64,000 nucleotides of DNA from a virus: positions 62,001-126,000 of the IMG/VR virus record IMGVR_UViG_3300025889_000075; one strand, written 5' to 3'. The position numbers were made by a program, and so were the translations under genes. The notes beneath the pieces were generated by a model. That model searched no databases. It was not told the origin of the DNA and saw only the letters and a list, made by a program, of their open reading frames with translations. Shown piece by piece: positions 16,801-33,683 of the stretch (its first letter is position 1; every line of letters starts with the position of its first letter).

Positions 16801-18171
16801 ATGGCGATTAGTGTTCCTGCTCTTCTGGATTCTGCACAGACCTACGCGAGCGCGGCAGATAGTTCTAATGAGGCAATCAACTTACTACAAATAGTTGATG
16901 CTTCTCACGCGTACACGTCTGGTTATACCCGAAGAAACTATTATGACAGTGCTGGTCAATTACCCACTGCTGATAGTTCTATGGAGGGTATGATCACGCT
17001 CGTTAAAGGCACACAAGCAGGTGGACTAGGTAATGGTCTGTATCTATGTACAGGAACTGCTTGGACAGAATTTTATGATTTAGATTCTGGCGATTATATC
17101 GACCCATTTTCTTTACAAGGTTCAACTTCTGGGTTTGTTGCAGGTGGGCATTATACTTTTGCTACAGCATTAAATTCTATTGGAACATATTCTTTCGGAA
17201 GTTCTGTTACTCTTTCAGATCATGGTGATTTGATTAGTGCATCCGCATATTCTGCACCGTCTAATGATGCTTCTTATGGATATGTTCATGGTGGGGTTAG
17301 AACAGCGCCAGTTCCTAATCCTTCTGTGGATAGATTTTCTTTTTCTAGTTCTACTGGTGGAACAAATGTTGGTAGTTTGTCGTTTTCGTATTATTATGCT
17401 GCAGGTTTTAGTTCACCTTCTTCTTATGGATATAACGTAGGTGGACAAGGGCAGACAATTATTCCATCTTTTCCTAGTACATACGGAAATTCAATTCAGA
17501 AATTTCCTCTAACGAGTTCAACTACCTCAACAGACATTGGAGATTTAGTTGTTAACGTACACAGGCAAATTGCTAATAATTCTACTGAATACGGTTACAA
17601 TTCTGGTGGTACAGCCTCACCATGGTCACCATCTCCAACAGCATTTAGTGCTCCAACTCTAGGACCAAGCGGACCTTCTTGGGGTCCAGGATCATATGGA
17701 ACAAATGATGCCAGCCCAGGCACAACTGATTTTTTTGTTGCTGTTAGAGATAAATTTCCATTTGCATCAGACACTAATTCATCTTGGATTGCTAATTTAA
17801 ATCCTTTCAGATCATCAGGCACTGGTGTTAACTCTTCAGACAAAGGGTTTTTCTTTACTGGATATCAAAGAACAAGTCCCTGGATTGGGATTAATGCCCT
17901 CCAACATTTTCCGTTTGCAAGCGATACTACTATTACTAGTAATGGTCTTCTTCAAACAGTAAATACATATCCTGCAGTGTATGTTGAAGGTTCTGGTTCT
18001 TCTTCAACAGATTATGGATATATCCATGGAAGTAGAGGAACTGCTTCTTATCCAGCAATTACTAGTGACATAATTAGATTTCCATGGTCTGCTACAGGCG
18101 GTGGAGAAACAGACGTTGGAGACATAACTTCTGGATATGGTAGGATTAATGCCACAGGACATCAGGTGTAA
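16801..18171 (+). CDS. Kelch-like repeat protein, array copy 1
   Basis: This 456-residue protein has an N-terminal module (PALLDSAQTYASAADSS... to about residue 100) of the same type as copies 3 and 6. Six divergent repeats follow, opening at GFVAGG, GYVHGG, GYNVGG, GYNSGG, the degenerate GFFFTG and GYIHGS. The fourth repeat has the largest insertion, about 30 extra residues rich in Pro and Ser. The chain ends with the array's terminal motif GHQV. I infer a six-bladed propeller with a virion or receptor-binding role. GGAATAACAC before the ATG gives a modest Shine-Dalgarno. Confidence 0.75.
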   Translation: MAISVPALLDSAQTYASAADSSNEAINLLQIVDASHAYTSGYTRRNYYDSAGQLPTADSSMEGMITLVKGTQAGGLGNGLYLCTGTAWTEFYDLDSGDYIDPFSLQGSTSGFVAGGHYTFATALNSIGTYSFGSSVTLSDHGDLISASAYSAPSNDASYGYVHGGVRTAPVPNPSVDRFSFSSSTGGTNVGSLSFSYYYAAGFSSPSSYGYNVGGQGQTIIPSFPSTYGNSIQKFPLTSSTTSTDIGDLVVNVHRQIANNSTEYGYNSGGTASPWSPSPTAFSAPTLGPSGPSWGPGSYGTNDASPGTTDFFVAVRDKFPFASDTNSSWIANLNPFRSSGTGVNSSDKGFFFTGYQRTSPWIGINALQHFPFASDTTITSNGLLQTVNTYPAVYVEGSGSSSTDYGYIHGSRGTASYPAITSDIIRFPWSATGGGETDVGDITSGYGRINATGHQV

Positions 18172-18173
18172 TT

Positions 18174-19424
18174 ATGGCAATTAATATAACAAAACTAATT
18201 AATGCCGTATCCGGAATCGTAGGAAACCTGGACAGTGACAACACGCTCACTGAATTGAACCGTGGTACAATTGCTGCACAGGAAGTAAACGAGGCGAGAG
18301 ACGCTCTCTCGTTCGCTACGGTTGCTGATTTCGAAACAGCTGACTCAACCAATGAGGGTAATATTGTCTATGCTAGTTCAACGAAAAAATATTACGTTTC
18401 TATTCACAATCGTTGGGCGCCAATTAATTTAACAGGTCCATCAACGACTGCTCCTGCTGCTCCATCTAGTCTAATCGTTCAAGGTTCTAGTTATGGGTAT
18501 ACGACTGGTGGTGCCGCGTCACCGGTATTGAATAATACGCAGTCATTAACTCAAATTTTACAATTTTCCTTTACTTCTGATGGTAATGCAACGGACGTTG
18601 GAGACATTAACCCAGCAGTTCCGCTTGGAAGAGTTGCTTCTAGTTCACAGACTTCTTCGACTCATGGTTATCATTCTGGTGGGTTAGTAACCCCACCACA
18701 AATTACGTCAACAAATAATATACAAAAATGGTCATTTACCAGTCCATATAATGGATCAGATGTCGCAGATTTGTCTTCTGATACTTTTAGACCGTTTGGG
18801 TCTAGTTCACCAACTGATGGTTATTCAACTGGGGGAAGAGGAGGAACACCAATAGTTTATCTAACAGTTCATGATAAATTTCCAACCTCTTCCGATACAA
18901 ATGCTACGGACAATGGTGATTTGACAGCGGGTAGATATCAGACTGGGGGAGGAAATTCTTCTTCTTCTGCTTCATATTTCGCTGGTGGATCCACACCCAC
19001 AGGGGCTGTGAATATAATAGAAAAAATACCTTTTGCGGCGGGTGGAACAGCAACAGACGTTGGCGACCTCACAACACCGAACATCAACAGCACTGGTGCA
19101 AATACTTCTGATCATGGTTACACTCTCGGTGGTTCTAATAATGGATATGCAGAAGCAAATTTAAATGTGATACAGAGATTTTCATATTCTTCTGATGGTA
19201 ACGCTACAGACTATGCTGATCTTGCAAACGGAGTTTACACTGGGGCAGGTTGTTCATCAACATCTTATGGTTATACAACTGGCGGACAAAGTTCACCAGG
19301 TGCCCCGCAAGCAGGTGCTGCAATTAATGTAATACAGAAATTTCCTTTCTCTACTGCTACAAATGGCACTGACGTGGGAGATTTGACTAGCATCTTAGCT
19401 AATCATTCAGGAAATCAAAACTAA
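18174..19424 (+). CDS. Kelch-like repeat protein, array copy 2
   Basis: This is a 416-residue paralogue. The N-terminal module (INITKLINAVSGIVGNLDSDN...TADSTNEGNIVYASSTKKYYVS) is followed by six repeats opening at GYTTGG, GYHSGG, GYSTGG, SYFAGG, GYTLGG and GYTTGG. Each has a FxF core and a TDVGDL-like end. The C-terminus is GNQN instead of GQQV. It begins 2 nt after copy 1, and its stop overlaps copy 3 by one base (TAATG), so translation is probably coupled. The function is inferred as in copy 1. Confidence 0.75.
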   Translation: MAINITKLINAVSGIVGNLDSDNTLTELNRGTIAAQEVNEARDALSFATVADFETADSTNEGNIVYASSTKKYYVSIHNRWAPINLTGPSTTAPAAPSSLIVQGSSYGYTTGGAASPVLNNTQSLTQILQFSFTSDGNATDVGDINPAVPLGRVASSSQTSSTHGYHSGGLVTPPQITSTNNIQKWSFTSPYNGSDVADLSSDTFRPFGSSSPTDGYSTGGRGGTPIVYLTVHDKFPTSSDTNATDNGDLTAGRYQTGGGNSSSSASYFAGGSTPTGAVNIIEKIPFAAGGTATDVGDLTTPNINSTGANTSDHGYTLGGSNNGYAEANLNVIQRFSYSSDGNATDYADLANGVYTGAGCSSTSYGYTTGGQSSPGAPQAGAAINVIQKFPFSTATNGTDVGDLTSILANHSGNQN

Positions 19425-20626
19425 TGACAATCAGCATAACAAACATAATAACAGCAATTGAGAACAAGATAGCAGCTCTTGACAGTTCTGTATCATCTCA
19501 AGATATGCGTCATTATTTTAGTGCTGCTGGTTTGACCAACACTACGATCACTCAGTATTATGATAGTGCAGGTCTTTTGCCAACAGCAGATTCTGATTAC
19601 AAAGGGCAGATTGTTTTAGTATCAAATCCTTCATCAGCAGCTTCAGGAAATGCATTGTATATTTGTACTGACTCTGGTGGAGGTGTTGCTTGGTCAGCGT
19701 GGCAGACACTTGATTCTGCTCCTACGTATTCGCCTGCACAGGGTTCATCATATGGGTATAATTCTGGTGGTGGATTCCCATCACCTGTAAATACTATTCA
19801 AAAATACTCATTTACATCAGATGGTAATGCTACTGACGTTGGTGATTTAACAGAGGTTAGATCTGCTTTAGCAGGGCAATCTTCAGATGTTAGTGGATAT
19901 GTTTCTGGTGGAACTCAAAGTAGTGGAAACAGGAATTACATCGAAAATTTTCCTTTCTCTACTGACGCTAATTCTACTGACGTTGGAGATTTGACAATAG
20001 GTAGATGGGGGTGTTCAGGTACTATGTCAGATGCTAATGGGTATACTTCTGGCGGTACTGGTACGCCGACGATTGTAAATGTCATCGACAAATTTCCATT
20101 GTCGTCTAATGCAAATGCTACTGATGTAGGCGATTTAACATCAGGAAGATATGGTGCGGCAGGTAATTCATCAACTACTAATGGATATGCTTCTGGTGGT
20201 TACCAACCACCTACTATAAATGCTATAGAGAAATTCCCATTCTCGTCTGATGCGAATTCTTCTGACGTAGGAGATTTGATAGCAGCAAGATACTATTCAG
20301 CAGGTCAATCATCAGATAATAGTGGTTATGTTTCTGGAGGATCAACTCTTGTAGCGCCGAGCGCTTTAAACGTCGTTGACAAATTCCCATTCTCTTCTGA
20401 CGCTAATTCTACCGAGGTGGGTAGTTTGACTCAAGCAAGGGGTCAAATGGCGGGAACATCATCAACTGTCAGTGGATATAATTCTGGCGGTTGGGTGCCA
20501 CCATCTTATCCGGTCAGTGGTTCTACAAACATTATAGACAAATTTCCATTTGCTTCTAATGGTAGTGCTACTGATGTTGGTGATCTTTTAACATTACAAC
20601 TGTTATCAGCAGGACAGCAGGTATAA
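19424..20626 (+). CDS. Kelch-like repeat protein, array copy 3
   Basis: This is a 400-residue paralogue with regular repeats. After an N-terminal module that includes YYDSAGLLPTADSDYKGQIVLV, similar to copies 1 and 6, six repeats open at GYNSGG, GYVSGG, GYTSGG, GYASGG, GYVSGG and GYNSGG. The conserved part (IDKFPFSSDANSTDVGDLT) hardly changes, while the stretch just after SGG differs in every repeat in length (about 6-13 residues) and sequence. The C-terminus is AGQQV. The tail codons plus TAAACA form the common gene border with copy 4. Confidence 0.8.
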   Translation: MTISITNIITAIENKIAALDSSVSSQDMRHYFSAAGLTNTTITQYYDSAGLLPTADSDYKGQIVLVSNPSSAASGNALYICTDSGGGVAWSAWQTLDSAPTYSPAQGSSYGYNSGGGFPSPVNTIQKYSFTSDGNATDVGDLTEVRSALAGQSSDVSGYVSGGTQSSGNRNYIENFPFSTDANSTDVGDLTIGRWGCSGTMSDANGYTSGGTGTPTIVNVIDKFPLSSNANATDVGDLTSGRYGAAGNSSTTNGYASGGYQPPTINAIEKFPFSSDANSSDVGDLIAARYYSAGQSSDNSGYVSGGSTLVAPSALNVVDKFPFSSDANSTEVGSLTQARGQMAGTSSTVSGYNSGGWVPPSYPVSGSTNIIDKFPFASNGSATDVGDLLTLQLLSAGQQV

Positions 20627-20629
20627 ACA

Positions 20630-21820
20630 ATGGCAATTAATATACAAACCTTGTTAGATGTAATTAATGCTAAGATCACCGCTGGTGTAGCAGCAGGATC
20701 CACTGACTCTGATCGATTAGTTACGTTGACTGCTTGGAGAGACAATCACCAGAATGCAGCATTCTTTAATACATTTGCTGATTTGCCCGCTGCTGATTCT
20801 TCGAATGCAGGAAATTTCTTTTCTACAGGTACAGGTTCTAGTAAAAAATACTATGTTTCTTGGAAAAATAAATTGAAAGAAGTTTTGTCAACAGATAGTG
20901 ATGCAGTAGGAAATCAAACATTACCTAACTCAGTAGGTCAAACTTATGGTTTTCATGCTGCAGGAATATCAGGAAACGATCCAGATACAACGCATACAAA
21001 TATAATTGAAAGATTTCCTTTTTCCTCTGACGCTAATGCTACTGATGTTGGTGATTTGTCTCCGACTCCTTTAGGTGGAAACCTTGGATCTTCTTCTTCG
21101 GTTGATCGAGGGTGGGCATTCGGCGGTAGCGGTGGCGTAAACTTTACGTTTGCTAATTCTAATTTGAGCAGCAATAATGCTTATTCAGCTAGCAATTTTG
21201 GTATACAAGGGGGTCAAAGCGAAACACATCTTTATGCTTTAGGTGGGCGTCCGACAAGTTTGCCTACTGCACCAAACGATACCTTTGCGCAAAAAAGACA
21301 ATTTTCTAATACAACTACTACTACTCTAACTTCTTTTTCTAATGCTAGACATCACGCAGCAACCGTTTCTGGTCCTGCTGCAGTTTATACTTCGGGTGGA
21401 TATAGATATTGGCATCCAAACGATAATCCTGCACTTATTACTCAGTCGCCCGGAACAGAAAAACATTCTTTTAGTAATGATGCTAGGTCTACTGTGCCTG
21501 GACTTCCCGCAAAATCTCCATATTATAATGTCCATCAAGGAATGCAAAATGAAGTAAATGGATATCTTGGAAGAGCAACACAATTAATAAAATTTCCATT
21601 TGCTTCGGAAACTCCAGTTTCAGTTAGTCAACCAATAATGCCAATCGGCGGGTATTTTTCTGCTAGTTCTTCTTCATCAGGTTATGGTTATAGATTCGCT
21701 GGTGGACCACCCGGTAGTTATCCAGGAATAGTTAAGTTTCCTTGGAACAGCGAATCAACAGTAACTAGCGTAGGAAATTTAACTTCTCCAAGAACTAGGG
21801 GTTCGGGGCATCAAAATTAG
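20630..21820 (+). CDS. Kelch-like repeat protein, array copy 4 (divergent)
   Basis: This is a 396-residue paralogue. The N-terminal module starts INIQTLLDVINAKITAG and includes LPAADSSNAGNFFSTG. Six repeats can be followed, but several are degenerate: GFHAAG, GWAFGG, LYALGG, VYTSGG, a shortened GYLGRA and YRFAGG. The IDKFPF core becomes IIERFPF, AQKRQF, TEKHSF, LIKFPF and IVKFPW. The end is GHQN. Keeping six repeats despite strong divergence argues for a constraint on repeat number. It begins 3 nt after copy 3. Confidence 0.75.
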   Translation: MAINIQTLLDVINAKITAGVAAGSTDSDRLVTLTAWRDNHQNAAFFNTFADLPAADSSNAGNFFSTGTGSSKKYYVSWKNKLKEVLSTDSDAVGNQTLPNSVGQTYGFHAAGISGNDPDTTHTNIIERFPFSSDANATDVGDLSPTPLGGNLGSSSSVDRGWAFGGSGGVNFTFANSNLSSNNAYSASNFGIQGGQSETHLYALGGRPTSLPTAPNDTFAQKRQFSNTTTTTLTSFSNARHHAATVSGPAAVYTSGGYRYWHPNDNPALITQSPGTEKHSFSNDARSTVPGLPAKSPYYNVHQGMQNEVNGYLGRATQLIKFPFASETPVSVSQPIMPIGGYFSASSSSSGYGYRFAGGPPGSYPGIVKFPWNSESTVTSVGNLTSPRTRGSGHQN

Positions 21821-21828
21821 GAACTATT

Positions 21829-23028
21829 ATGGCAGTCGATATTAAAAAACTATTAGAGATTGTACAGAAAAGAATTAATAATCTTGATTCTTCGACAGTC
21901 ACATTGCAAGAGTTAATTGATATTGCTAACTTTACTGATAAAGCATCAAAGGGCACATTGCAATTTGTTGATGATTCGAGCGATTTGCCAAACTTATTAA
22001 GTGGTAATACGCCTAGTGCAGAGTCTCAAAAACAATTGATTTTTGTTAAGAACTCAGGAAGAATGTTTGTCAAAAAAGATAAGTGGAAACCATTTACGTA
22101 CAGAGGTTTGATTCCTTCCTCTGGACCATCCTTTGTTTATGGTGGTACTACAACAGGGTTTCGTGCTGGGTTGGTTTCAATTCCAACTTGGACATATTCA
22201 GACGCTATTTCTTCTTTTCCGTTCGCTAGTGATACTCCTTTCGCTAGTTGGGGATCTTTAACAGTTGCTAATGGTTATAACCATGGTTGGAGTAGTACAA
22301 CTCATGGATATACTGCTGGTGGTTATGGTCCTGCTGTACCAGGAGACAATAGTAAAATCGATAAATTTTCTATGAGTTCGCCTGGTAATGCCAGTACCAC
22401 TGCAAACCTTCCTCTTGGTAGATCACAGGGTGTAGCGCACCATAATGACACTAATGGGTATTTATCTGGCGGCAGTGGTGGTGGTTCATATGCATTTAAA
22501 TTTATTTTTTCCAGCGATACTACTAATGCTACTACTGTTCCAGCATTGGCGACACCTTTAAGTCTTAACAATAGATCTCCGCAGGTGAGCACAACTTATG
22601 GGTATACTTCTGGAGGAACTACCTTTTCCAATTCAATAGAAAAGTTTCCCTTTGCTTCAGAGGATGCCTGGTCTGATGTAGGAGATTTAACTGTTGGTGG
22701 ACGCAAATCATCAGGAATGTCTTCTGATACACACGGATATAATGCTGGTGGACAAATATCTCCACATCCAACGATAGGTAACGATATTAATAAATTCCCT
22801 TTCGCTTCAGATACAAACGCTACTGATGTAGCAAGTTTAACTACTGCAGCTGCAGCGAATACTGGTGTAAGTTCAACCACTAACGGATATTCTTTAGGAG
22901 GATGGACTCTTAACCCTGGATATAATAATGTATCTACAAGCGATAAATTTCCGTTTTCGTCAGAAACAAGCATTTCTAATGTGTTCAGTAATACAGGTGG
23001 TGGTGAAGCGGCAGGACATCAGGTATAA
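21829..23028 (+). CDS. Kelch-like repeat protein, array copy 5
   Basis: This is a 399-residue paralogue. Its N-terminal module (VDIKKLLEIVQKRINNLDSS...FVKNSGRMFVKKDKWKPFTY) is closest in layout to the distant copy at 45629; both continue with SFVYGG instead of the usual FQGSTSGY. Six repeats open at GFRAG, GYTAGG, GYLSGG, GYTSGG, GYNAGG and GYSLGG, and the end is GHQV. It is followed by the only sizeable gap in the array, 63 nt, which holds a late promoter. Confidence 0.75.
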   Translation: MAVDIKKLLEIVQKRINNLDSSTVTLQELIDIANFTDKASKGTLQFVDDSSDLPNLLSGNTPSAESQKQLIFVKNSGRMFVKKDKWKPFTYRGLIPSSGPSFVYGGTTTGFRAGLVSIPTWTYSDAISSFPFASDTPFASWGSLTVANGYNHGWSSTTHGYTAGGYGPAVPGDNSKIDKFSMSSPGNASTTANLPLGRSQGVAHHNDTNGYLSGGSGGGSYAFKFIFSSDTTNATTVPALATPLSLNNRSPQVSTTYGYTSGGTTFSNSIEKFPFASEDAWSDVGDLTVGGRKSSGMSSDTHGYNAGGQISPHPTIGNDINKFPFASDTNATDVASLTTAAAANTGVSSTTNGYSLGGWTLNPGYNNVSTSDKFPFSSETSISNVFSNTGGGEAAGHQV

Positions 23029-23053
23029 GAGTTAATTCTCACATAATTTTTTT

Positions 23054-23061
23054 TATAAATA
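23054..23061 (+). promoter_or_regulatory. T4-type late promoter box inside the array
   Basis: An exact TATAAATA follows a T-rich stretch in the gap between copies 5 and 6, 30 nt before the GTG start at 23092. It would restart late transcription for the second half of the array. Confidence 0.75.
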
Positions 23062-23091
23062 GATTGTGATAATTTGTGTGAGGATATTTCC

Positions 23092-23406
23092 GTGGTATTA
23101 AATCTAACCGCATTAATTGCAAGTCTCGACTCCGCTGCTAACCTGGCAGACTCAAGCGACCCTGCATTAGATCTTTTACAAATTCTTGATGCAACAAGAA
23201 TGAACAACAACGCGACGACTAAATATTATGCAGCTCGCGCTGATCTGCCTATTGCAGATTCAGCGAATGAGGGCATGGTTGTTCTCGTTTCTGATTTAAC
23301 TGGAGCAAACGCAGAAAGAGGTTTGTTTGTTAGCACAGGAACATTTTGGAAAGAATTGCAAGGGTTTGAAGCAGGTAGTTCATTAACGCCAAGAACAAAC
23401 CCGTAA
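23092..23406 (+). CDS. Array copy 6: N-terminal module only
   Basis: The frame can be opened from a TTG at 23074, but the GTG at 23092 is preferred. It has GAGGA 7-8 nt upstream and gives an N-terminus (VLNLTALIASLDSAANLADSSDPALDLLQILDAT) that aligns with copy 1. The product is about 104 residues. It carries the whole attachment-type module (LPIADSANEGMVVLVSDLTG...GLFVSTGTFWKEL) and then stops at about the point where the repeats would begin (SSLTPRTNP). It is either a remnant of a deleted gene or a free N-terminal module that could compete or cap. It has its own late promoter. Confidence 0.7.
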   Translation: MVLNLTALIASLDSAANLADSSDPALDLLQILDATRMNNNATTKYYAARADLPIADSANEGMVVLVSDLTGANAERGLFVSTGTFWKELQGFEAGSSLTPRTNP

Positions 23407-23418
23407 GGTAATTAATTC

Positions 23419-24711
23419 ATGGCGATTAATATTCAAAAACTGTTAGACGCTGTACAGGCAAAAATCAATGCCAGTACCGGATCATCTGGTATGGTTGAAT
23501 TGAATCATTTGTCTAATTTGTCGCAGTGGTTGAATAGTTACACCAATCAATCAAGCGTTAAAGAATATACTAATCTAGCAGCATTTCCAACTGCAGACTC
23601 AGCAAACCACGGAGATATAGCATTTAGTCTTGACAGTGGCGCTTATCGTATTTCTGAACAATTAGCGTGGAGAGAAATATCACTAAATGCTGATAGTGCG
23701 ATTTCTTCTGGACCTAGTTCTCCACCTTCGCCATTACAAGCAGCGAGTAATTATGGATACGTTGTTGGAGGTCAAACTCCTGTTACTGCTTCTATGGAAA
23801 GGTTTGCTTTTGCAAGTTCTGCCAACGGGACGTCTACTGGAAATTTATCGACCCCAAGATGGGGTGCGGCGGGTTATTCTTCTTCTACTGATGGATATGC
23901 TATTGGTGGTTCGACTCCTTTAGTGACACCGCATTTAAATGGTTATGATGATGTTTTAAAATACCCGTTTGCTTCTAGTACTCCATCCACCCAAATAGGA
24001 ACTTTGAATGCCCTTTCACCTGCTCCGACAGGAACTCCAGGAGGGGGAAGAATGGGTACTTCTAATATTTGTTCTCCAACTTCTGGATATGTTGTTGGAT
24101 TTGGTGGTAGATTAAGTCCCCCAAATCCGCTAGAACCACAATATCTATCAACTAATTGGAAATTCCCTTTTTCTTCTCCAACAGTAACTGATCTGTCGCT
24201 AGTAGGGGATTTAACAAGCGCCATATTTTACAGCAGTGGATCTTCATCAGGAGATTATGGGTACTTGGCGGGTGGTGAAACTGATGTTCCATCTCCAGCA
24301 TTAGTCTCCACTGTTGAAAAATGGTCTTTCTCTTCCGATGGTAATTCAACATCTGTTGGTTCTTTGTCTGGTCATTCTCGATCTGATGGGGGAAGTTCTG
24401 GTCCTACAAATGGTTATGCTCAGGGATCAAATCCAGCAGTAGGAACACCGACCGCAGTAGATAAAGTATGGAAATATAGTTTTACTTCTGACGGAAATGC
24501 AACAGAAATTGGAACTCTTTCAATAGATAGGTTTGGTGTGAATGGACATTCTGGTGGAACTCATGGATATGCGTCTGGCGGTGTTTTACCGAGCAACGGA
24601 GGTTATTCAAATGTTATTGATAGATTTCCTTTTTCTGCTGATACTAATTCTTCTGATGTAGGCGATCTAGCAGTTGCATCTCGTAATTATGCTGCTCCAG
24701 CGTCAAACTAG
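23419..24711 (+). CDS. Kelch-like repeat protein, array copy 7 (N-terminal type B)
   Basis: This is a 430-residue paralogue. The type B N-terminal module (INIQKLLDAVQAKINA...FPTADSANHGDIAFSLDSGAYRISEQLAWREI) is shared with copies 9 and 11. Six divergent repeats open at GYVVGG, GYAIGG, GYVVGF, GYLAGG, GYAQGS and GYASGG, with long variable stretches in the second and third. The end (YAAPASN) lacks the GQQV tail. AAGGTAATTAATTC before the ATG gives a weak Shine-Dalgarno. Confidence 0.75.
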   Translation: MAINIQKLLDAVQAKINASTGSSGMVELNHLSNLSQWLNSYTNQSSVKEYTNLAAFPTADSANHGDIAFSLDSGAYRISEQLAWREISLNADSAISSGPSSPPSPLQAASNYGYVVGGQTPVTASMERFAFASSANGTSTGNLSTPRWGAAGYSSSTDGYAIGGSTPLVTPHLNGYDDVLKYPFASSTPSTQIGTLNALSPAPTGTPGGGRMGTSNICSPTSGYVVGFGGRLSPPNPLEPQYLSTNWKFPFSSPTVTDLSLVGDLTSAIFYSSGSSSGDYGYLAGGETDVPSPALVSTVEKWSFSSDGNSTSVGSLSGHSRSDGGSSGPTNGYAQGSNPAVGTPTAVDKVWKYSFTSDGNATEIGTLSIDRFGVNGHSGGTHGYASGGVLPSNGGYSNVIDRFPFSADTNSSDVGDLAVASRNYAAPASN

Positions 24712-24720
24712 GTATAACTT

Positions 24721-25866
24721 ATGGCAATCGATCTAAAAGAATTACTCATAGCAGCACAGAATAAGATCGGTAATTCGACCATCTCAACTGCAACCAGAGA
24801 TCTTGTATTTCTGGCAAAAACTGCTACACGTGGTGATACGTCAATCGTTGCTTTTGATTCTGATGGTGAGTTTCTTGATTCAGCATCACATGTTCATAGA
24901 ATTGCATATCATAGAGGGAGACAAAATCTATTCTTGTTAGATAGTGATAGAACATGGAAACCGATCAGTGGTACTGTTGCTGCTGAATATTCATTCCAAG
25001 GAAGCACTTCTGGATATGTTTCTGGTGGCTTCGCGCCAGGGTCAACAAATACCATCCAGAAATACCCATACACTTCTAATGGTAATGCGACTGATGTTGG
25101 TGATTTGACTGAAGCAAAAGTAGGTACATCAGGACAATCATCCTCTGATAATGGATATAATTCTGGCGGAACCCCAAATATAAACACCATAGAGAAATTC
25201 CCATTCTCATCTGACGCCAATTCTACTGATGTGGGTGATTTGACAGTAGTAAAACCATATACAGCAGGTCAATCATCAGCAAGTAATGGATATTCTTCTG
25301 GTGCTAATAGTCCTGCTGCAAACGGTGGTAATACCATTGACAAATTTCCGTTTGCTGCTGATGCGAACGCTACTGATGTCGGAGATATAACGGTAGCAAC
25401 TGGTCTGTCAGCAGGTCAATCATCCGAAACTCATGGTTATACTTCTGGAGGTGCGATGATTGACAAATTTCCATTTGCTTCTGATGGTAATGCTACTGAT
25501 GTGGGCGATCAATCAATATACAGAACCGAAGTGAGTGGTCAATCATCCGAAACTCATGGTTATATGTCTGGCGGTTGGAATTACAATGGAGGTTCTCCAC
25601 TTATGTATAATGTTATAGATAAATTCCCATTCTCATCTGATACTAACGCGACTGATGTCGGAGATATGACATCGGTGAGGAGAGCGGCGGGAGGTACATC
25701 GTCAACTACTAGCGGATATACTGCTGGTGGCGTAATTCCTACTGGATCCACGCCATTCTTAAACATCATAGACAAATTTCCATTCTCTTCTGATGGTAAT
25801 GCTACTGACGTAGGAGATTTGCTCGCCCCAAATTATTATATAGGTTCTGTAGGACAACAGGTATAA
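24721..25866 (+). CDS. Kelch-like repeat protein, array copy 8 (N-terminal type A)
   Basis: This is a 381-residue paralogue. The type A N-terminal module (IDLKELLIAAQNKIGNS...FDSDGEFLDSASH...LFLLDSDRTWKPISGTV) is shared with copies 10 and 12. Six very regular repeats open at GYVSGG, GYNSGG, GYSSGA, GYTSGG, GYMSGG and GYTAGG. The fourth has almost no variable stretch (SGGAMIDKFPF), so that loop can be lost. The C-terminus is VGQQV, and the conserved border leads into copy 9. Confidence 0.8.
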   Translation: MAIDLKELLIAAQNKIGNSTISTATRDLVFLAKTATRGDTSIVAFDSDGEFLDSASHVHRIAYHRGRQNLFLLDSDRTWKPISGTVAAEYSFQGSTSGYVSGGFAPGSTNTIQKYPYTSNGNATDVGDLTEAKVGTSGQSSSDNGYNSGGTPNINTIEKFPFSSDANSTDVGDLTVVKPYTAGQSSASNGYSSGANSPAANGGNTIDKFPFAADANATDVGDITVATGLSAGQSSETHGYTSGGAMIDKFPFASDGNATDVGDQSIYRTEVSGQSSETHGYMSGGWNYNGGSPLMYNVIDKFPFSSDTNATDVGDMTSVRRAAGGTSSTTSGYTAGGVIPTGSTPFLNIIDKFPFSSDGNATDVGDLLAPNYYIGSVGQQV

Positions 25867-25869
25867 CTT

Positions 25870-27069
25870 ATGGCAATTAATATAAGAAATTTAATGACAG
25901 TAGTGCAAACGAAGTTAAACGCGACAACTTCGACCACTCCTGCACTTGAATTTAATCGCCTGTCAAAATTAGCAGATACCTTGAATGATTTTACAACTGG
26001 TATTAAAACATATACAGTTGCTGCAAGACCTGTTGCAGATTCTGCCAATCATGGAGAAATTATTTTTAGTTCAGATAGTGGAGCATTTTTTATCTCGGAA
26101 CAACTATCATGGAGAGAATTAGCAGTTGGTGATAGTGCGATTGTTGCTACTCCTACTTATACCTTCCAAGGGAGCACTTCTGGATATACTTCTGGTGGTA
26201 GAACAGCAGCAAGTAACGTTGCACTAAACACTATTGACAAATTTTCTTTTGCTCCAGGTGCTCAGAATGCTACAGACGTAGGTGATTTGACATTAGGTAT
26301 GTATGGTGGCGCTGCAGGTCAATCATCATCTGTATCTGGTTATACTTCTGGTGGATATCCAGGAACTCGATCCAGCGTAATAGATAAATTTCCATTCGCT
26401 TCTGACGGTAACGCAACAGATGTTGGTGATTTAACATCATCAAGATGGTATCTTTCAGGTCAATCTTCTTCTTCTAATGGGTATTCTGCTGGTGGTCCTG
26501 GTTCAAACAATGTTATTGATAAATTCCCATTTTCTTCAGACGCTAACGCTACTGACGTAGGAGATTTGACAGTAGGAAGATACGGATCATCAGGTCAATC
26601 ATCTACGACTCATGGATATGCTTCTGGTGGATTTACTCCTCTCTCAAATGTCATTGATAAATTCCCGTTTTCATCCGACGCTAATGCTACTGACGTTGGC
26701 GATATAACAGTAGCAAGACGTTATACAGCAGGTCAATCATCAACAGATAATGGATATACTTCTGGTGGAGAGCAAAATCCTCTGGCCACGAATACTGCTT
26801 CCAATGTCATAGATAAATTCCCATTTTCATCTGATGCTAACGCTACTGACGTTGGTAATTTAACAATAGCGCGAGCTCATGTTACCGGACAATCCTCGAC
26901 TGTTAATGGATATACTACTGGTGGATGGTTATGGCAGCCATTCCCGACTCCACCAGTTGTCTATAATACAATTGATAGGTTCCCATTCTCTACTACTGCT
27001 AACGCTACTGACATTGGAGATTTAACAATAGCAAGATATAGTGGAAATACAGAGGGACAACAGGTATAA
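25870..27069 (+). CDS. Kelch-like repeat protein, array copy 9 (N-terminal type B)
   Basis: This is a 399-residue paralogue with a type B N-terminal module (LEFNRLSKLADTLNDF...VADSANHGEIIFSSDSGAFFISEQLSWRELA). Six regular repeats open at GYTSGG, GYTSGG, GYSAGG, GYASGG, GYTSGG and GYTTGG. Variable stretches run from 4 residues (GPGSNN) to about 17 (WLWQPFPTPPVVYN region). The FPFSSDANATDVGDLT cores are nearly identical in protein but differ in codons. The C-terminus is EGQQV. Three nucleotides separate it from copy 10. Confidence 0.8.
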   Translation: MAINIRNLMTVVQTKLNATTSTTPALEFNRLSKLADTLNDFTTGIKTYTVAARPVADSANHGEIIFSSDSGAFFISEQLSWRELAVGDSAIVATPTYTFQGSTSGYTSGGRTAASNVALNTIDKFSFAPGAQNATDVGDLTLGMYGGAAGQSSSVSGYTSGGYPGTRSSVIDKFPFASDGNATDVGDLTSSRWYLSGQSSSSNGYSAGGPGSNNVIDKFPFSSDANATDVGDLTVGRYGSSGQSSTTHGYASGGFTPLSNVIDKFPFSSDANATDVGDITVARRYTAGQSSTDNGYTSGGEQNPLATNTASNVIDKFPFSSDANATDVGNLTIARAHVTGQSSTVNGYTTGGWLWQPFPTPPVVYNTIDRFPFSTTANATDIGDLTIARYSGNTEGQQV

Positions 27070-27072
27070 CTT

Positions 27073-28223
27073 ATGGCAATTAATATACAAAAATTACTAG
27101 AAGCGATACAAACAAGTATAGGTAATGCCACACCTGCTACACCCACACGCGAACTCGAAATTCTTACCAAAGGTGCATTTAAGTGGGGCGACAATCAAAT
27201 CACTTCATTTGATTCTGATGGAGAATTTCTTGACTCAGCAACTACTTCGCCATATATGTTAGCATACCATACAGGCCATATATGTTAGCATACCATACAG
27301 GTAAGAAAAACATTTATGCATTTGACAGCGGATCATGGCAATCGATCAGTGGTACTGTTGCTGCTGGATATTCATTCCAAGGTTCTACCAGTGGATATAC
27401 TTCTGGTGGATTGGTACCACCATTCTCTAACGTCATTGACAAATTCCCATTCTCATCTGACGGTAATGCTACTGATGTAGGAGATTTGACAGTAGCAAGA
27501 TCTAATGCAGCAGGTCAATCATCGTCTGCTAGTGGATATACTTCTGGTGGACATCCCTTCCCACTAGACGTAATTGACAAATTCCCATTCTCAGCTGATG
27601 CTAACGCTACTGATGTTGGTGATTTAACAGTAGCAAGACGGTATCTTGCAGGTCAATCTTCTTCTGCTAATGGGTATTCTGCTGGTGGTCCTGGTTCAAA
27701 CGTAATTGACAAATTCCCGTTTTCTTCTGATGCTAATGCTACTGATGTAGGCGATTTGACAGTAGCAAGATATTATTTAGCAGGTCAATCATCTACTGTT
27801 AGCGGATATTCTTCTGGTGGCACTCCACCATACACAAACGTCATTGATAAATTCCCATTTTCTGCTGATGCTAATGCTACTGATGTAGGTGATCTGACAG
27901 TAGCAAGAGGATATGTAACAGGTCAATCATCAACTGTTAGTGGGTATACTTCTGGGGGATTTAGTCCAGCTCAACAATCAAACGTAATTGACAAGTTTTC
28001 ATTCTCAACTGACACTAACGCTACTGACGTTGGGGATTTGACAGTAGCAAGATACAATTTAGCAGGAGGTCAATCATCTACTGCTAGCGGGTATACTTCT
28101 GGAGGTACGACATCCGACGCTACCAACATCATAGATAAATTCCCATTCTCATCTGATGGTAATGCTACGGATGTAGGTGATTTATCAGTAACTAGATATG
28201 GTGGAGCAGGTCAACAGGTATAA
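27073..28223 (+). pseudogene. Kelch-like repeat gene, array copy 10, frameshifted by a 26-bp duplication
   Basis: As read, the frame opened at 27073 stops at 27288, giving 71 residues of a type A N-terminal module. A second frame, open from 27282 to 28223, carries the rest of the module and six regular repeats. A perfect 26-bp tandem duplication (27250-27275 and 27276-27301) causes the break. Removing one unit restores TTSPYMLAYHTGKKNIYAFD, matching copy 12 (TTSPYLMLYHTTDKNIYMWD), and gives an intact 374-residue protein ending AGQQV. Because the two units are identical, the change could be recent and reversible. An internal ATG at 27282 might still allow the propeller part to be made. Confidence 0.85.
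27250..27301 (+). repeat. Perfect 26-bp tandem duplication
   Basis: Two identical 26-bp units, beginning CCATATATG and ending ATACAGG, lie head to tail inside the N-terminal module of array copy 10. Since 26 is not a multiple of three, the reading frame shifts. Loss of one unit by slippage would restore the gene. Confidence 0.95.
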
Positions 28224-28226
28224 GTT

Positions 28227-29384
28227 ATGGCAATTAATATACAGAATTTATTAAATGTTGTTCAGGCGAAGTTAAACGCAACAACGCCAACGACACCTGC
28301 ACTTGAATTTTCTAGATTGTCATCGATATCTGATATGTTAGAAGATCATGGAGCGGCTGTTAAATCTTATCCTGGATTAGCATCATTTCCAACAGCAGAC
28401 TCAGCGAATCATGGTGACATTGCTTACAGTTTAGATAGCGCAACGTATAGAATATCAGAGCAACTTGCTTGGAGAGAAATATCATTAAATGCTGATAGTG
28501 TGATTGCTGCTGCTCCTACTAGCACACAAGCACAAGGTTCTACCAGTGGATATAATTCTGGTGGATTTTTAAATTCCGGCAACTCAAACGTCATCGAAAA
28601 ATTTCCATTCTCTACTGACGCTAATGCTACTGATGTTGGTGATTTGACACTAGGAAGATATAATGCATCAGGTCAATCTTCAACTGCTAGTGGGTATACT
28701 TCTGGTGGATCCAGTCCTGGACTATCACCCTATATTGTCAATAACATTGATAAATTTCCATTCTCTGCTGATGGTAATGCTACCGATGTAGGGGATTTGT
28801 CAGTAACAAGAACTGGAACAGCAGGACAATCTTCAGACGCTAGTGGATATATTTCTGGAGGTAGTTTGCCTGCTGCTTCTAATGTCATTGATAAATTCTC
28901 ATTCTCTTCTGATGGTAATGCAACTGACGTAGGCGATTTAACAGAAGCAAGAATAAAACCATCAGGACAATCATCAACTGTTAGTGGATATAATTCTGGT
29001 GGAACAGGGACTGGCAATATCATAGATAAATTCCCGTTCGCCTCTAATGCTAATGCTACCGATGTTGGTGATATAACGGTAGCGAGAAACTATGCTGTAG
29101 GTCAAAATTCAGACGCTAGTGGTTATACCTCTGGAGGATCCCCAACGTCGAATGTTATCGATAAATTCCCGTTTTCATCCGACGCGAATGCTACTGACGT
29201 AGGAGATTTGACAGTAGCAAGATATACATCAGCAGGTCAATCGTCAACTGCTAGTGGATATACTTCTGGAGGGTATCCATATCAAAACACTATTGATAAA
29301 TTCTCATTCTCTTCTGATGGTAATGCGACTGACGTTGGAGATATGACAGAAGTAAAGGGTTTCGTTATAGGACAACAGGTATAA
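28227..29384 (+). CDS. Kelch-like repeat protein, array copy 11 (N-terminal type B)
   Basis: This is a 385-residue paralogue with a type B N-terminal module (LEFSRLSSISDMLEDH...FPTADSANHGDIAYSLDSATYRISEQLAWREI), nearly the same as copy 7 in its last 40 residues. Six regular repeats open at GYNSGG, GYTSGG, GYISGG, GYNSGG, GYTSGG and GYTSGG. The variable stretches are short to medium (FLNSGNS, SSPGLSPYIVN, SLPAAS, TGTG, SPTS, YPYQ). The C-terminus is IGQQV. It is 3 nt after copy 10. Confidence 0.8.
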   Translation: MAINIQNLLNVVQAKLNATTPTTPALEFSRLSSISDMLEDHGAAVKSYPGLASFPTADSANHGDIAYSLDSATYRISEQLAWREISLNADSVIAAAPTSTQAQGSTSGYNSGGFLNSGNSNVIEKFPFSTDANATDVGDLTLGRYNASGQSSTASGYTSGGSSPGLSPYIVNNIDKFPFSADGNATDVGDLSVTRTGTAGQSSDASGYISGGSLPAASNVIDKFSFSSDGNATDVGDLTEARIKPSGQSSTVSGYNSGGTGTGNIIDKFPFASNANATDVGDITVARNYAVGQNSDASGYTSGGSPTSNVIDKFPFSSDANATDVGDLTVARYTSAGQSSTASGYTSGGYPYQNTIDKFSFSSDGNATDVGDMTEVKGFVIGQQV

Positions 29385-29387
29385 ATT

Positions 29388-30638
29388 ATGGCAATTGATC
29401 TAAAAGAATTATTAAGTGCAGTACAGAGCAAGATTGGTAATCTTACGCCGTCAAGTCCATCGCGTCAAATTGAATTCTTGGCGAAAGCAGCAGTTAGGTC
29501 AGGAGAGAATTTAGTTCGCTCTTACGATTCTGATGGTGAGTTTTTAGATTCTGCGACAACTTCGCCTTATTTAATGCTCTATCATACAACAGATAAAAAT
29601 ATCTACATGTGGGATAGCGATGGTACTTGGAAACCGATTAGCGGCAATGAAGCGTTATTGGTTGGTTTACAAGGGGATTTAGCGGGGTATGCTATAACAG
29701 GAAGAAAAGCCACAAACTCCGACATAGATAATATTGTTGCATTTAGGTTTGCTTCAGGATCAGAAACTATCTATAATCAGGGTCTTAGTGGGGTAAACTC
29801 TTTGCCGGCAGGTGTTGGTATGGGTCATGGTCGTGGTACAATGAGTGAGACTAATGGATATCATTACGGTGGTTATAATCCTCCTTCTCCAATGTCAAGC
29901 ACAATGTATAAATTTCCATTTTCTTCTACTGGTGGACTTTCTGGTTTAAGTAGTATGAGTCCGCATGGAGCATATGCTTGGACTGCAGCTGTTTCAGCAC
30001 AAGGTCCAGGATACGGTTATTATTCAGCTGGGCGAGCATTACCCGCAGGTGCATCAAGCGCAACACATAAATTTCAATTTTCTAATGATACTTCTGCGGC
30101 GACTCCTGTTGGGACTACTAATTTTAGCTCTTATGCTACTGGTCAAACAGATGTCGTAGGCGGGCAGGGTCATATATTTCAATATGATATCATTGGAGGA
30201 TCATCAAGAGATAAATACCCATTTGCCTCTGATGTTAATGCTACTGCTATAACAAGTATTTCGATCTCAAAATATGGTTCTCAAGGATCTACTGGAGACG
30301 CTAGTAATTATTATCAAGCAGGTGGAGTAAACCCAAGCGGAAGTACCATTTACACTGATATTTACAAAATGAATTTCACAAGTGAAGGACCTTCAACAAA
30401 CATCGGCGATTTAACTACTGCAAGATATCAGACTGGAGGTTATTCTTATTCTGGCGGAACTGCTTTTATTGCGGGGGGGAGTTCCGGAACTCCTTCTCCA
30501 AACTATTTAAACCCATTAGCATATACATCAACTATTGAAGGTATTTCTTTTGCTAGTGATACCATCGGTGTTGCTGCTGGTTCTGGAATGTCTGGACCAT
30601 CGCCAGCTCGATCTGGATATGGTTGCGTTCAGGTTTGA
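29388..30638 (+). CDS. Kelch-like repeat protein, array copy 12 (type A, divergent repeats)
   Basis: This is a 416-residue paralogue and the last of the array. The N-terminal module is a clear type A (IDLKELLSAVQSKIGNL...YDSDGEFLDSATTSPY). The six repeats are highly divergent: GYAITG, GYHYGG, GYYSAG, HIFQYDIIGG, YYQAGG and FIAGG, with cores such as MYKFPFSSTGG and RDKYPFASDVNAT. A conserved module thus carries an unrelated-looking propeller, as expected if N-terminal and propeller parts are exchanged. The end is GCVQV. A sigma70-like promoter for the next cassette overlaps its stop. Confidence 0.75.
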   Translation: MAIDLKELLSAVQSKIGNLTPSSPSRQIEFLAKAAVRSGENLVRSYDSDGEFLDSATTSPYLMLYHTTDKNIYMWDSDGTWKPISGNEALLVGLQGDLAGYAITGRKATNSDIDNIVAFRFASGSETIYNQGLSGVNSLPAGVGMGHGRGTMSETNGYHYGGYNPPSPMSSTMYKFPFSSTGGLSGLSSMSPHGAYAWTAAVSAQGPGYGYYSAGRALPAGASSATHKFQFSNDTSAATPVGTTNFSSYATGQTDVVGGQGHIFQYDIIGGSSRDKYPFASDVNATAITSISISKYGSQGSTGDASNYYQAGGVNPSGSTIYTDIYKMNFTSEGPSTNIGDLTTARYQTGGYSYSGGTAFIAGGSSGTPSPNYLNPLAYTSTIEGISFASDTIGVAAGSGMSGPSPARSGYGCVQV

Positions 30639-30663
30639 TTCTCTTTAAAATTTAATATATACT
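30635..30663 (+). promoter_or_regulatory. Sigma70-like promoter
   Basis: TTGATT (30635-30640), a 17-nt spacer and TATACT (30658-30663) lie 25 nt before the ATG of the sulfotransferase-like gene. The same -35 hexamer occurs before the clamp, clamp-loader and hsp20 genes, so this cassette may be expressed early although it sits among late genes. Confidence 0.65.
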
Positions 30664-30688
30664 ATTGTTATTTAATTATTAATTTATT

Positions 30689-31528
30689 ATGAAACAATTA
30701 CATTTTTGCGGTGGACTTCCACGTTCAGGATCAACAGTCTTAATGAATATACTTCAGCAAAACCCTGAAGTATTCACGACCACAACTGATCCTCTTCCGA
30801 TGAATCTTCAACGATATATTCTTCAGAGATTTCGTGTAACTGAAATGTTCCAAGCAATGGACGGTGATCATGCAGATCGTGCGTTGTATGGTATGGCAAT
30901 GGGAGCAATTAATGGTTGGTACAGCGGATTAACAAATAAACCTGTTGTTATCTCTAAGACTCGTTATTGGAATCGTATACATCATTTACTGCCGAATGCA
31001 AAAATATTAATTATGATTCGAGACTTGAGGGACATCGTCGAAAGTTTCAACAAAGTTAATTTAAGATTAAAAGCATTACATTCATACGAAACAGAAGGTA
31101 GCGCGTTATATGCTGCTATGACTGAGATGCAAAAATTTGATTATCATTTCGGCAAAGATAATTCTTTAAGTGCATCATTACAAGAAGAAGTACCAGCAGC
31201 AATGGAATTTTGGATGTATGAGAATAAACAAGACACAATTAAGTTTATTCGTTACGAAGACTTTCTTAAAGATCCTATAGATACAATTAGATCAATCTAT
31301 GCTTTTCTTAATTTAAATTATTACGAACACGACTTAAATAATATTTCACAATCAGAAATGTTTGAACATGATAATGCCTATTTTATGGAGAAAACTGATC
31401 ATCGGACCAAACCCTCCTTTATTAAATGGCAACCACCAAAAAGGTTATTAAGCGAACGTATACATAATCGTATACTTAAAGAATATCAATGGTTTTATGA
31501 AGGATTTTATCCGGAGGAATTAAAATAA
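30689..31528 (+). CDS. Sulfotransferase family protein
   Basis: This 279-residue protein begins with CGGLPRSGSTVLMNIL. PRSGST at residues 11-16 is the 5'-phosphosulfate loop that binds PAPS in sulfotransferases. A second element, LIMIRDLRDIVESFNKV with Arg111 and Ser119, fits the 3'-phosphate-binding site. It should transfer sulfate from PAPS to a hydroxyl or amino group of an unknown acceptor, possibly a glycan or a virion or host surface component. No membrane segment is visible, so it is probably cytosolic. It shares a TAATG overlap with the oxygenase gene, so the two act as a coupled pair under a sigma70-like promoter. Confidence 0.8.
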   Translation: MKQLHFCGGLPRSGSTVLMNILQQNPEVFTTTTDPLPMNLQRYILQRFRVTEMFQAMDGDHADRALYGMAMGAINGWYSGLTNKPVVISKTRYWNRIHHLLPNAKILIMIRDLRDIVESFNKVNLRLKALHSYETEGSALYAAMTEMQKFDYHFGKDNSLSASLQEEVPAAMEFWMYENKQDTIKFIRYEDFLKDPIDTIRSIYAFLNLNYYEHDLNNISQSEMFEHDNAYFMEKTDHRTKPSFIKWQPPKRLLSERIHNRILKEYQWFYEGFYPEELK

Positions 31529-32883
31529 TGGAAATGGCAGCGCAACAACAATATACCGCAGCAGATGCTTTTCGTGATAGGGGATACGTATATTTAAATA
31601 GTACCATCTCTAGAAAAGATTGTGAAGAACTAACGAAGTATATGTTCTCACTTTATGATAAAGGAGTGCTTGAAAAAGACGAGCAATGTCCTCTTTCCGA
31701 TTCAGTTTATGGTGATGAAATCTTTGATGGTATCGCTAGAGAATTAGCAGGTCCGTTGTCGAATCAACTCGGCGTTCAGTTGCTCCCTACCTACACTTAC
31801 GCCAGGATTTATCGCAACGGGGAAATACTAGTGCGTCATAAAGATCGCCCCTCATGCGAGATCTCAGGAACCATGACACTCGGTTTCGATGATGGTTCAG
31901 GACTTTGGCCAATTTATTTCGCTGAGAATGATGACGATCAAATAGGAACTCCTTACGAAATTAATATCGGTGATTTGGTAATGTACCGTGGTTGCGAACT
32001 TCCTCACTGGAGACCGAAATATAAAGGTAAGTGGCAAGTTCAAATCTTTTTCCATTTTGTTGATGCTAATGGTCCACACAAAGATTTTGTCTGGGACGGC
32101 AGGAAGTCAATGGGGAAAAAGAAAACTCCAGATAATATGAGAGAAAAAGGTGAAACTCCTACGCTCGACATGTTTAAGGGTAAGGTCATCAATGATGAAG
32201 TTGATGTTATGCGCGGAAGAAACATTCCTGAAGATATTAAATTCTATCATCTTCCACAATCACAATGGATCACTAATGGTATTATGATTCGAACTTGTGA
32301 TAACGAGTTTCCTGGTGCTTCGTTCTTCAGTAAAAAAGGCGTTCATCCTGAAATGACATTAAGTCTAGAAGAATGTAAACGAGTAATCTCTTATGCCGAT
32401 CAAAAATATGGAATGAAATCTACCGTTGGTTCTGATGAATCAAGAGCATACAATAAGGAAATTCGTGAAGTTGATACATACACTCTGGAGCATACACCAG
32501 AAACTTCTTGGTTGTTTCAGAAAGTAGCAGCTGCCGTGGGTGTAGTAAACGCTGAATACTACCGCTGGAATCTTCTTGGTATTACTCATGCTCTGCAGTT
32601 ACTACATTATAAAGGCGAAGATAAATCTCATTATCAGTGGCATATTGACGCGGGACCAACGAGCAGCGCAACGAGAAAACTATCTCTTTCTATTCCGCTC
32701 AATGATGACTATGAGGGAGGCGATCTTATAATCAATAGCAACGGTGTTATAATGACTGCGCCCAAAGAACTCGGATCTATTTCTTTCTTCCCAAGTTTCA
32801 GTTTGCATAAAGTTGAACCTGTTACTAAAGGTGAGCGCTGGGTAATCGTCGCTTGGATTCATGGACCTGATCGATTTAAATAG
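31528..32883 (+). CDS. Two-domain 2OG-Fe(II) oxygenase
   Basis: This 451-residue protein carries two double-stranded beta-helix oxygenase domains. The first (about 85-180) has His104-x-Asp106 (RHKDRPSCE) and distal His160; a Lys near 168 takes the place usually held by Arg. The second (about 345-450) is of prolyl-4-hydroxylase type, with His372-x-Asp374 (WHIDAGP), distal His427 (SLHKVEPV) and 2OG-binding Arg437. Both sets of metal ligands look intact. The substrate is unknown. Coupling to the sulfotransferase suggests consecutive modification, hydroxylation then sulfation, of one target; that is inference. Confidence 0.8.
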   Translation: MEMAAQQQYTAADAFRDRGYVYLNSTISRKDCEELTKYMFSLYDKGVLEKDEQCPLSDSVYGDEIFDGIARELAGPLSNQLGVQLLPTYTYARIYRNGEILVRHKDRPSCEISGTMTLGFDDGSGLWPIYFAENDDDQIGTPYEINIGDLVMYRGCELPHWRPKYKGKWQVQIFFHFVDANGPHKDFVWDGRKSMGKKKTPDNMREKGETPTLDMFKGKVINDEVDVMRGRNIPEDIKFYHLPQSQWITNGIMIRTCDNEFPGASFFSKKGVHPEMTLSLEECKRVISYADQKYGMKSTVGSDESRAYNKEIREVDTYTLEHTPETSWLFQKVAAAVGVVNAEYYRWNLLGITHALQLLHYKGEDKSHYQWHIDAGPTSSATRKLSLSIPLNDDYEGGDLIINSNGVIMTAPKELGSISFFPSFSLHKVEPVTKGERWVIVAWIHGPDRFK

Positions 32884-32891
32884 CGAATCCT

Positions 32892-32899
32892 TATAAATA
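32892..32899 (+). promoter_or_regulatory. T4-type late promoter box
   Basis: An exact TATAAATA lies between the oxygenase gene and gene 13, 28 nt before the ATG at 32928. It would drive the neck and terminase block. Confidence 0.8.
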
Positions 32900-32927: not shown

Positions 32928-33683
32928 ATGCCAGCAATTACAAGTAGAGATACGCTTATTGATTATTGCTTGAGGAAACTTGGCGACCCTGTTATTGAAA
33001 TAAACGTCGATCAGGATCAAATAGAAGATAAAGTAGATGATGCTCTGCAAATGTATCAGGAGTATCATAGCGACGCAACAATTCGTACTTATTTGAAGCA
33101 TCTCGTTACTGCTGATGATGTTTCGAATAAGTACATTCCTATTTCATCAGATATTATTTACGTATCTAAACTATTCCCCGTAACGTCAACCTTTGGATCA
33201 TCAGGCAACTTATTTGATATTCGTTATCAGATGATGTTGAACAACATGGGCGACTTTATTAACTTTGCTGGTGATATTGCTTATCTTTATCAGATGGAGC
33301 AATACCTCAGCATGGTCGATCAAACATTGCACGGCAATCCATTAGTTAGATTTTCTAGAAGACAAAACCGTCTTTATCTCTTTGGAGATTTCGAAGATAA
33401 AGATGTCAAAGCAGGTGACTATTTAATTGCTGAGGTTTATCAAATAGTAAACCCACAATCTCACACCAGCGTTTATAACGACATGTTCATTAAGAACTAT
33501 ACTACTGCGCTAATTAAACAGCAGTGGGGTATTAACATGTCTAAATTTGAAGGTATGCAATTACCTGGAGGAGTAACAGTTAGCGGAAGACAAATGTATG
33601 ATGACGCAACAACTGAGTTAGAAAAACTCGAAGAGAAACTGCGTCTTGAACAAGAATTACCTCCTGACTTTTTTGTAGGTTAA
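32928..33683 (+). CDS. 13: Neck protein gp13
   Basis: This 251-residue protein matches T4-like gp13 in its N-terminal pattern (SRDTLIDYCLRKLGDPVIEINVDQDQIEDKVDDALQMYQEYHSDATIRTYL) and in its position before gp14, gp15 and the terminase. gp13 completes the head-tail neck after packaging and helps join the tail. It is shorter than T4 gp13 (about 309), as is usual in marine relatives. AGGATTATGCTAAA precedes the ATG, and a late promoter is 28 nt upstream. The next gene starts 1 nt after its stop. Confidence 0.85.
   Translation: MPAITSRDTLIDYCLRKLGDPVIEINVDQDQIEDKVDDALQMYQEYHSDATIRTYLKHLVTADDVSNKYIPISSDIIYVSKLFPVTSTFGSSGNLFDIRYQMMLNNMGDFINFAGDIAYLYQMEQYLSMVDQTLHGNPLVRFSRRQNRLYLFGDFEDKDVKAGDYLIAEVYQIVNPQSHTSVYNDMFIKNYTTALIKQQWGINMSKFEGMQLPGGVTVSGRQMYDDATTELEKLEEKLRLEQELPPDFFVG

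Follow-up and report, generated by a model that had tools for sequence, protein, structure and literature searches.

Modification enzymes of viruses and the locus under study

In viruses of the Mimivirus type, a virus-encoded 2-oxoglutarate (2OG) hydroxylase and a transferase act on collagen-like virion fibers. Marine phages often carry genes for sulfotransferases and 2OG oxygenases, which are counted as "auxiliary metabolic genes" and have no known role. We analyzed a locus that combines the two in a stretch of 64,000 nucleotides (referred to here as the window; positions 62001 to 126000 of the 155,131-base IMG/VR virus record IMGVR_UViG_3300025889_000075), which covers the part of an uncultured T4-like phage genome that encodes structural proteins. 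A sulfotransferase (ST) gene (positions 30689 to 31528 of the window; 279 amino acids [aa]) is followed by a gene for a fused double oxygenase (31528 to 32883; 451 aa). The pair lies, as an earlier note on this DNA had described, between a fiber-like tandem array of some eleven paralogs predicted to be beta-propeller proteins of the Kelch type (16801 to 30638) and gene 13; all features given here are on the + strand. With a little less than even confidence, we read the locus as a module whose enzymes decorate the propeller proteins or a glycan that these carry. The Mimivirus-type system concerns collagen repeats and glucosyl transfer, whereas the one proposed here would concern Kelch propellers and sulfate transfer.

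Phage sulfotransferases have been described as unclear in function (PMC10580990; 2023), and phage 2OG oxygenases have been interpreted as metabolic (PMC9602691). In the literature searched, we found no report linking phage STs to virion proteins, fibers, or propeller genes, nor any linking phage RCC1 or Kelch fibers to STs. The eleven RCC1-like proteins of coliphage phAPEC6, which have no known function (PMC7247149), parallel the array of about eleven Kelch paralogs. Two Synechococcus phages carry an ST directly beside propeller genes of the Kelch type (S-SKS1) or the RCC1 type (S-SRM01). These STs are 25 to 29% identical to that of the window and have no double oxygenase beside them.

Recurrent association of sulfotransferases with propeller genes

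The partner common to the ST and the oxygenase was the neighboring array. Among the core-clade STs, 22 of 25 had a Kelch array nearby, and one that had none (L187) was preceded by a gene whose long product had propeller-type matches in Pfam. The Kelch-ST association recurred in a distant cyanophage branch (S-SKS1). Directly upstream of STs from other branches were genes for RCC1 propellers (15 STs, including that of S-SRM01) or YCF48-like repeat proteins (3 STs). Kelch, RCC1, and YCF48-like proteins represent three unrelated sequence types, and parsimony puts the changes of upstream type along the ST tree at about 11.

Overall, 42 of the 87 phage STs had a propeller gene (Kelch, RCC1, or YCF48-like) within 2.5 kb upstream. 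By the same measure, 7 of 130 distant oxygenases (p, 1e-13) and 30 of 186 further genes from these loci (p, 5e-8) followed a propeller gene this closely, with p values that overstate the difference because related sequences are not independent. The array, the ST, the oxygenase, and two small module genes were also found together at different genome positions, i.e., next to gene 13, between gene 20 and genes 21 to 23, and at another site. These two conserved genes (15536 to 16790; 313 and 111 aa), which have no assigned function, travel with the other three components in most relatives. Among the 72 unassigned module neighbors, there were Pfam matches to 2OG_3 (15), 2OG_5 (13), Methyltransf_24 (7), GT25 (3), endosialidase chaperone (4), and another sulfotransferase family (1), in counts that allow one protein to match several families. 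Further STs sat behind genes of carbamoyltransferases or tetratricopeptide repeat-glycosyltransferase-like proteins.

Two ST clades had features of their own. STs of the S-SCSM1 type (L097, L125, L128, L129, and relatives) occupied a fixed place between SbcC-like endonuclease and "midasin" genes. In an RCC1-linked clade (L148, L144, L152, and relatives), the ST belonged to a larger protein (592 aa); the second half of this protein resembled a glycosyltransferase by eye and matched no Pfam family.

The propeller array

One array protein (25870 to 27066; 399 aa) was predicted to consist of an N-terminal domain followed by a six-bladed Kelch propeller. Its model matched Kelch domains with target-normalized template modeling (TM) scores of 0.86 to 0.90, the best matches being KLHL12, Keap1, and designed Kelch proteins. 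By sequence, no Pfam Kelch model detected the array proteins. Among isolates, the array protein had a weak match in S-SKS1 only, and its N-terminal domain had no match. We call the array fiber-like because in T4 the corresponding position, immediately preceding gene 13, is occupied by short-fiber and whisker genes.

The short gene at 23074 to 23406 encodes the array N-terminal domain only. It is probably not a broken gene, since the short open reading frame (ORF) is conserved in relatives (L003, 358 to 669; 74% identity). At about 27070 to 28223, an array gene is seemingly split into an N-terminal ORF and an ORF at 27282 to 28223, perhaps by a frameshift. The IMG/VR contig L001 has the equivalent of the latter ORF and begins there.

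Predicted cofactor site and fold of the sulfotransferase

The ST matched the Pfam family Sulfotransfer_3 (PF13469) with an E value of 2e-20 and a score of 74 bits, above the curated cutoff of 27. Its 5'-phosphosulfate-binding loop is GLPRSGST (residues 9 to 16; 30713 to 30736), and its 3'-phosphate-binding segment runs from R111 to S119 (31019 to 31045). In an alignment of 45 sequences, residues G9, L10, P11, R12, S15, T16, W94, R111, S119, and H238 were invariant. The lack of binding of 3'-phosphoadenosine-5'-phosphosulfate (PAPS), which the earlier note had named as grounds for abandoning its reading, is thus not what the conserved residues suggest. Judged from its sequence, the protein is a sulfotransferase of the PAPS type whose cofactor site is intact and for which sulfate transfer is predicted. 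Support for the chemistry of the cofactor is thus good, and the acceptor may belong to any of several classes. Adenosine 5'-phosphosulfate (APS) kinase was not found in the phage record. We therefore rejected phage-made PAPS, and the cofactor would be made by the host.

The AlphaFold model of the ST was confident (predicted local distance difference test score, 90). Its 13 best fold matches in the PDB were tyrosylprotein sulfotransferases (TPSTs; TM about 0.5), and heparan 3-O-sulfotransferases and others followed. TPST1 and TPST2, which belong to the Sulfotransfer_3 family, have the PAPS-binding motifs and, to judge from these modest TM scores, possibly the overall fold in common with the phage ST at about 20% identity or less. 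At the positions of the TPST catalytic Glu and substrate-binding Arg residues, which belong to the E-E-T-R-x-x-x-R segment, the phage ST has Thr, Asp, and Met, and the residues at these positions vary among its relatives. We rejected specific tyrosine sulfation of the array, because these catalytic residues are missing and Tyr is not enriched in the array proteins of ST loci. The NCBIfam profile of NoeE, a Nod-factor (fucose) sulfotransferase, matched the ST at a significant but subthreshold level (E value, 2.4e-8), the score being far below the family cutoff (33 of 500 bits). A cellular origin of the ST was also rejected, its bacterial relatives being at most 30% identical and its core clade phage specific.

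A double oxygenase with a putatively diverged first domain

Both ORFs of the pair were confirmed as start-stop-coupled genes: the ST stop codon (TAA) and the oxygenase start codon (ATG) overlap by one base (TAATG), and a ribosome-binding site, GGAGG, read from the sequence (31513 to 31517), precedes the oxygenase gene. The Pfam family 2OG-FeII_Oxy_3 matched only the C-terminal half of the product (residues 357 to 445; E value, 4e-15; 57 bits against a cutoff of 27). This half contains H372-x-D374, H427, and R437 (32641 to 32838), which were invariant in nine full-length relatives; by its residues, the domain carries the complete 2OG/Fe set, i.e., the iron triad plus the 2OG-binding Arg. It resembles prolyl 4-hydroxylases and PKHD-type hydroxylases (PiuC/YbiX), which have the same HxD...H...R pattern. 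Unlike in those enzymes, the phage domain is fused to a second domain and encoded within a phage fiber region.

The N-terminal domain has a metal triad, H104-x-D106...H160 (31837 to 32007), that was invariant in the same nine relatives. Q170 occupies the usual +10 place of the 2OG-binding Arg, and R162, at +2, is invariant instead. The intact catalytic motifs claimed for both enzymes thus held for the PAPS site and for the C-terminal domain (H372, D374, H427, and R437), while the N-terminal domain has the triad with no Arg at +10. No Pfam family matched the N-terminal domain. A shallow profile comparison found no similarity between the two domains; a deeper one (hhalign) gave a P value of 0.004 and a probability of 9%, with HxD and the distal H in register. 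These data suggest, but do not prove, that the N-terminal domain is a diverged oxygenase-type domain.

The N-terminal domain (31570 to 32118) matched PHROG 2954, a cyanophage and pelagiphage family labeled "ferrochelatase," on residues 15 to 194 with an E value of 6e-42; this family has the N-terminal domain in common with the window oxygenase. No ferrochelatase profile matched the domain in Pfam or NCBIfam (E value up to 1) or in a PDB profile search. In Prochlorococcus phage P-RSM4, adjacent genes annotated as "2OG-Fe(II) oxygenase" and "ferrochelatase" matched the C-terminal and N-terminal halves, respectively, so the window gene is a fused form of such a pair. On the basis of the H-x-D...H triad, the lack of a ferrochelatase profile match, the P-RSM4 neighbor, and the fusion to an oxygenase domain, the label looks wrong and is not supported here. 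PHROG 2954 has been treated as a ferrochelatase and as a metabolic gene enriched in seasonal viruses (PMC11561400), and this label merits reexamination with an oxygenase-type domain in mind. In three array-linked loci (L230, L233, and L238), the oxygenase was encoded by two adjacent ORFs rather than by one fused gene.

Conservation of the gene pair

The ST and oxygenase genes were directly adjacent in the window and in eight relatives (L103, L009, L010, L186, L191, L183, L134, and L209), and L001 contained an identical pair (100% identity). One or two genes, coding for small 2OG oxygenases or a glycosyltransferase-like protein, intervened in nine others (L187, L011, L219, L202, L203, L116, L211, L200, and L227), and the array itself stood between them in L102, L208, and L013. 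All 13 Kelch-linked ST records longer than 15 kb contained the double oxygenase. Conversely, 18 oxygenase records with no nearby ST (up to 197 kb) yielded no ST in a search that had no positive control and in records that may be fragments. Two core-clade STs in loci with no array (L114 and L115; 20 to 24 kb) occurred without the oxygenase. The pair is therefore conserved but loosely, and its genes are separable.

These results bear on the proposal of the earlier note that hydroxylation is followed by sulfation of a common target, for which it had counted separation of the pair in relatives as contrary evidence. Such separation was found in part, the oxygenase and the array occurring without the ST in the 18 records. 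Given that the two genes are separable and in some relatives have other genes or the array between them, sulfation does not have to follow hydroxylation on one and the same residue, and we rejected an obligate two-step chemistry on one residue on account of the same 18 records (again, with no positive control). The oxygenase appears to be independent of the ST, since it occurs without it, whereas array-linked STs always occurred with the oxygenase. This one-sided dependence of Kelch-linked STs is compatible with hydroxylation coming first but is not proof of it.

Promoters of the module and of gene 13

A sigma-70-like promoter, TTGATT-N17-TATACT (30635 to 30663; 9 of 12 consensus matches), lies 5' of the ST gene, and its -35 element overlaps the stop codon of the last array gene. 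Taken alone, this match is what chance would give: the region contains 36 comparable sites, and shuffles contain 30.3 ± 6.1. Across the ST group, near-consensus sigma-70 sites were present in 5 of 27 upstream regions against 0.12 expected, a number reached in none of 300 shuffles; two of the five regions are near identical, leaving about four independent cases. These two regions contain the exact sequence TTGACA-N17-TATAAT. Of the two nearest relatives of the window, one has kept TATAAT, and the other has a changed and shortened -10 region. The T4-type late promoter TATAAATA (32892 to 32899) lies 5' of gene 13. Among gene 13 relatives, 52% had TATAAATA in their upstream region; the figures were 2% in shuffles and 5% for ST regions. 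Together, the near-consensus sites in relatives and the distribution of the late motif (52% versus 5%) indicate, at the level of sequence, that a separate non-late promoter for the ST is a recurrent feature. The early-type promoter of the earlier note therefore exists as a site, and relatives support its non-late character; the single match is no different from chance, and the "early" timing is what we infer.

Genome context

The gene 13-type neck protein gene (32928 to 33683; PHROG 211 head-tail adaptor; E value, 2e-39) adjoins the module. The genes 3' of the pair encode neck (gene 13/14 type), sheath, portal, protease, and major head proteins. The reading that this is a typical cyanophage, with the host that this implies, was rejected, as psbA was not found in the 155-kb record. 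Outside the window, Pfam searches of the same phage (L256 to L261) identified a Tet/JBP oxygenase and a TET-associated glycosyltransferase, a candidate DNA base hypermodification system. Four GT25 glycosyltransferases, a protein of the UDP-glucose dehydrogenase family, an isocitrate lyase/phosphoenolpyruvate mutase-type enzyme, and an IMP dehydrogenase were also found outside the window by Pfam.

Proposed decoration of propellers, possible modification of receptors, and other explanations

In the decoration module that we favor, the ST would use host PAPS to place sulfate on the propeller proteins or on an attached glycan, and the oxygenase would add hydroxyl groups to the same target, at residues or at sugars. 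Such groups may provide new acceptor sites or change existing ones, and within the Kelch group hydroxylation may precede sulfation, because the ST of that group is found only where the oxygenase is. The added sulfate and hydroxyl groups would change the charge and the binding of the host-contacting surface. Several results argue for this reading: the array link of the core clade, the propeller link of 42 of 87 STs, the roughly 11 changes of propeller type, and the occurrence of the same gene set at different positions. The module neighbors are mainly oxygenases, methyltransferases, GT25 glycosyltransferases, and fiber chaperones. In addition, the predicted PAPS site is invariant, the nearest folds include protein-modifying sulfotransferases, and APS kinase is lacking. 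Of the targets that the earlier note had suggested, a virion fiber is the one that the gene neighborhoods favor best, while a target residue within it did not emerge.

Other results weigh against decoration. The contents of Tyr, Ser, Thr, Pro, Asn, and Asp did not differ between array proteins with and without an ST, and the catalytic residues of TPSTs are missing. A virion location of the array proteins is suggested by gene position only. A fiber-modifying enzyme has no need of a non-late promoter, and some ST clades (e.g., the S-SCSM1 type) have no propeller neighbor. To these may be added the dependence among sequences noted above for the p values.

In the main rival reading, the ST and the oxygenase may alter a host surface glycan that the propellers recognize, thereby keeping additional phage from binding to the infected cell or progeny from being trapped by debris. 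A shared glycan would then explain why the enzymes stand beside the propellers. Receptor-modifying genes of temperate phages are located near tailspike genes. A role of this kind would suit the non-late promoter 5' of the ST in several relatives, the STs of other branches beside carbamoyltransferase and glycosyltransferase-like genes, and the subthreshold similarity to NoeE. Neighborhood data cannot separate it from propeller decoration. However, no transporter or membrane-anchoring gene was seen beside the pair, many oxygenases of the module are of the protein-hydroxylase type, and the expression time of the ST is only inferred; we regard receptor modification as rather unlikely.

A role as auxiliary metabolic genes, acting on small molecules or host metabolism, is the common reading of phage 2OG oxygenases (PMC9602691) and STs (PMC10580990), and Sulfotransfer_3 enzymes are diverse. 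It would not predict a link to propeller genes, however, and the phage-specific core clade, with bacterial relatives at most 30% identical, also makes it improbable. That the interval between structural genes is merely a hot spot for gene acquisition, with an ST and an oxygenase of unrelated functions, would fit their separability and the extra genes that come and go between them but is very doubtful given the narrow gene content, the same gene set at different genome positions, and a propeller link far commoner for STs than for other oxygenases.

Extended beyond this locus, the decoration reading leads to a more tentative proposal: with PAPS from the host, tailed phages would sulfate (and hydroxylate) the beta-propeller proteins by which they bind their receptors, or a glycan carried by those proteins. 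If true, a post-translational fiber-decoration system would recur with Kelch, RCC1, and YCF48-like propellers, and phage sulfotransferases would have a general role. For enzymes so far counted among the auxiliary metabolic genes of marine phages, the recurrent adjacency to propeller genes points to a specific, testable role, in which they would chemically decorate the surface that contacts the host, or the receptor of that surface.

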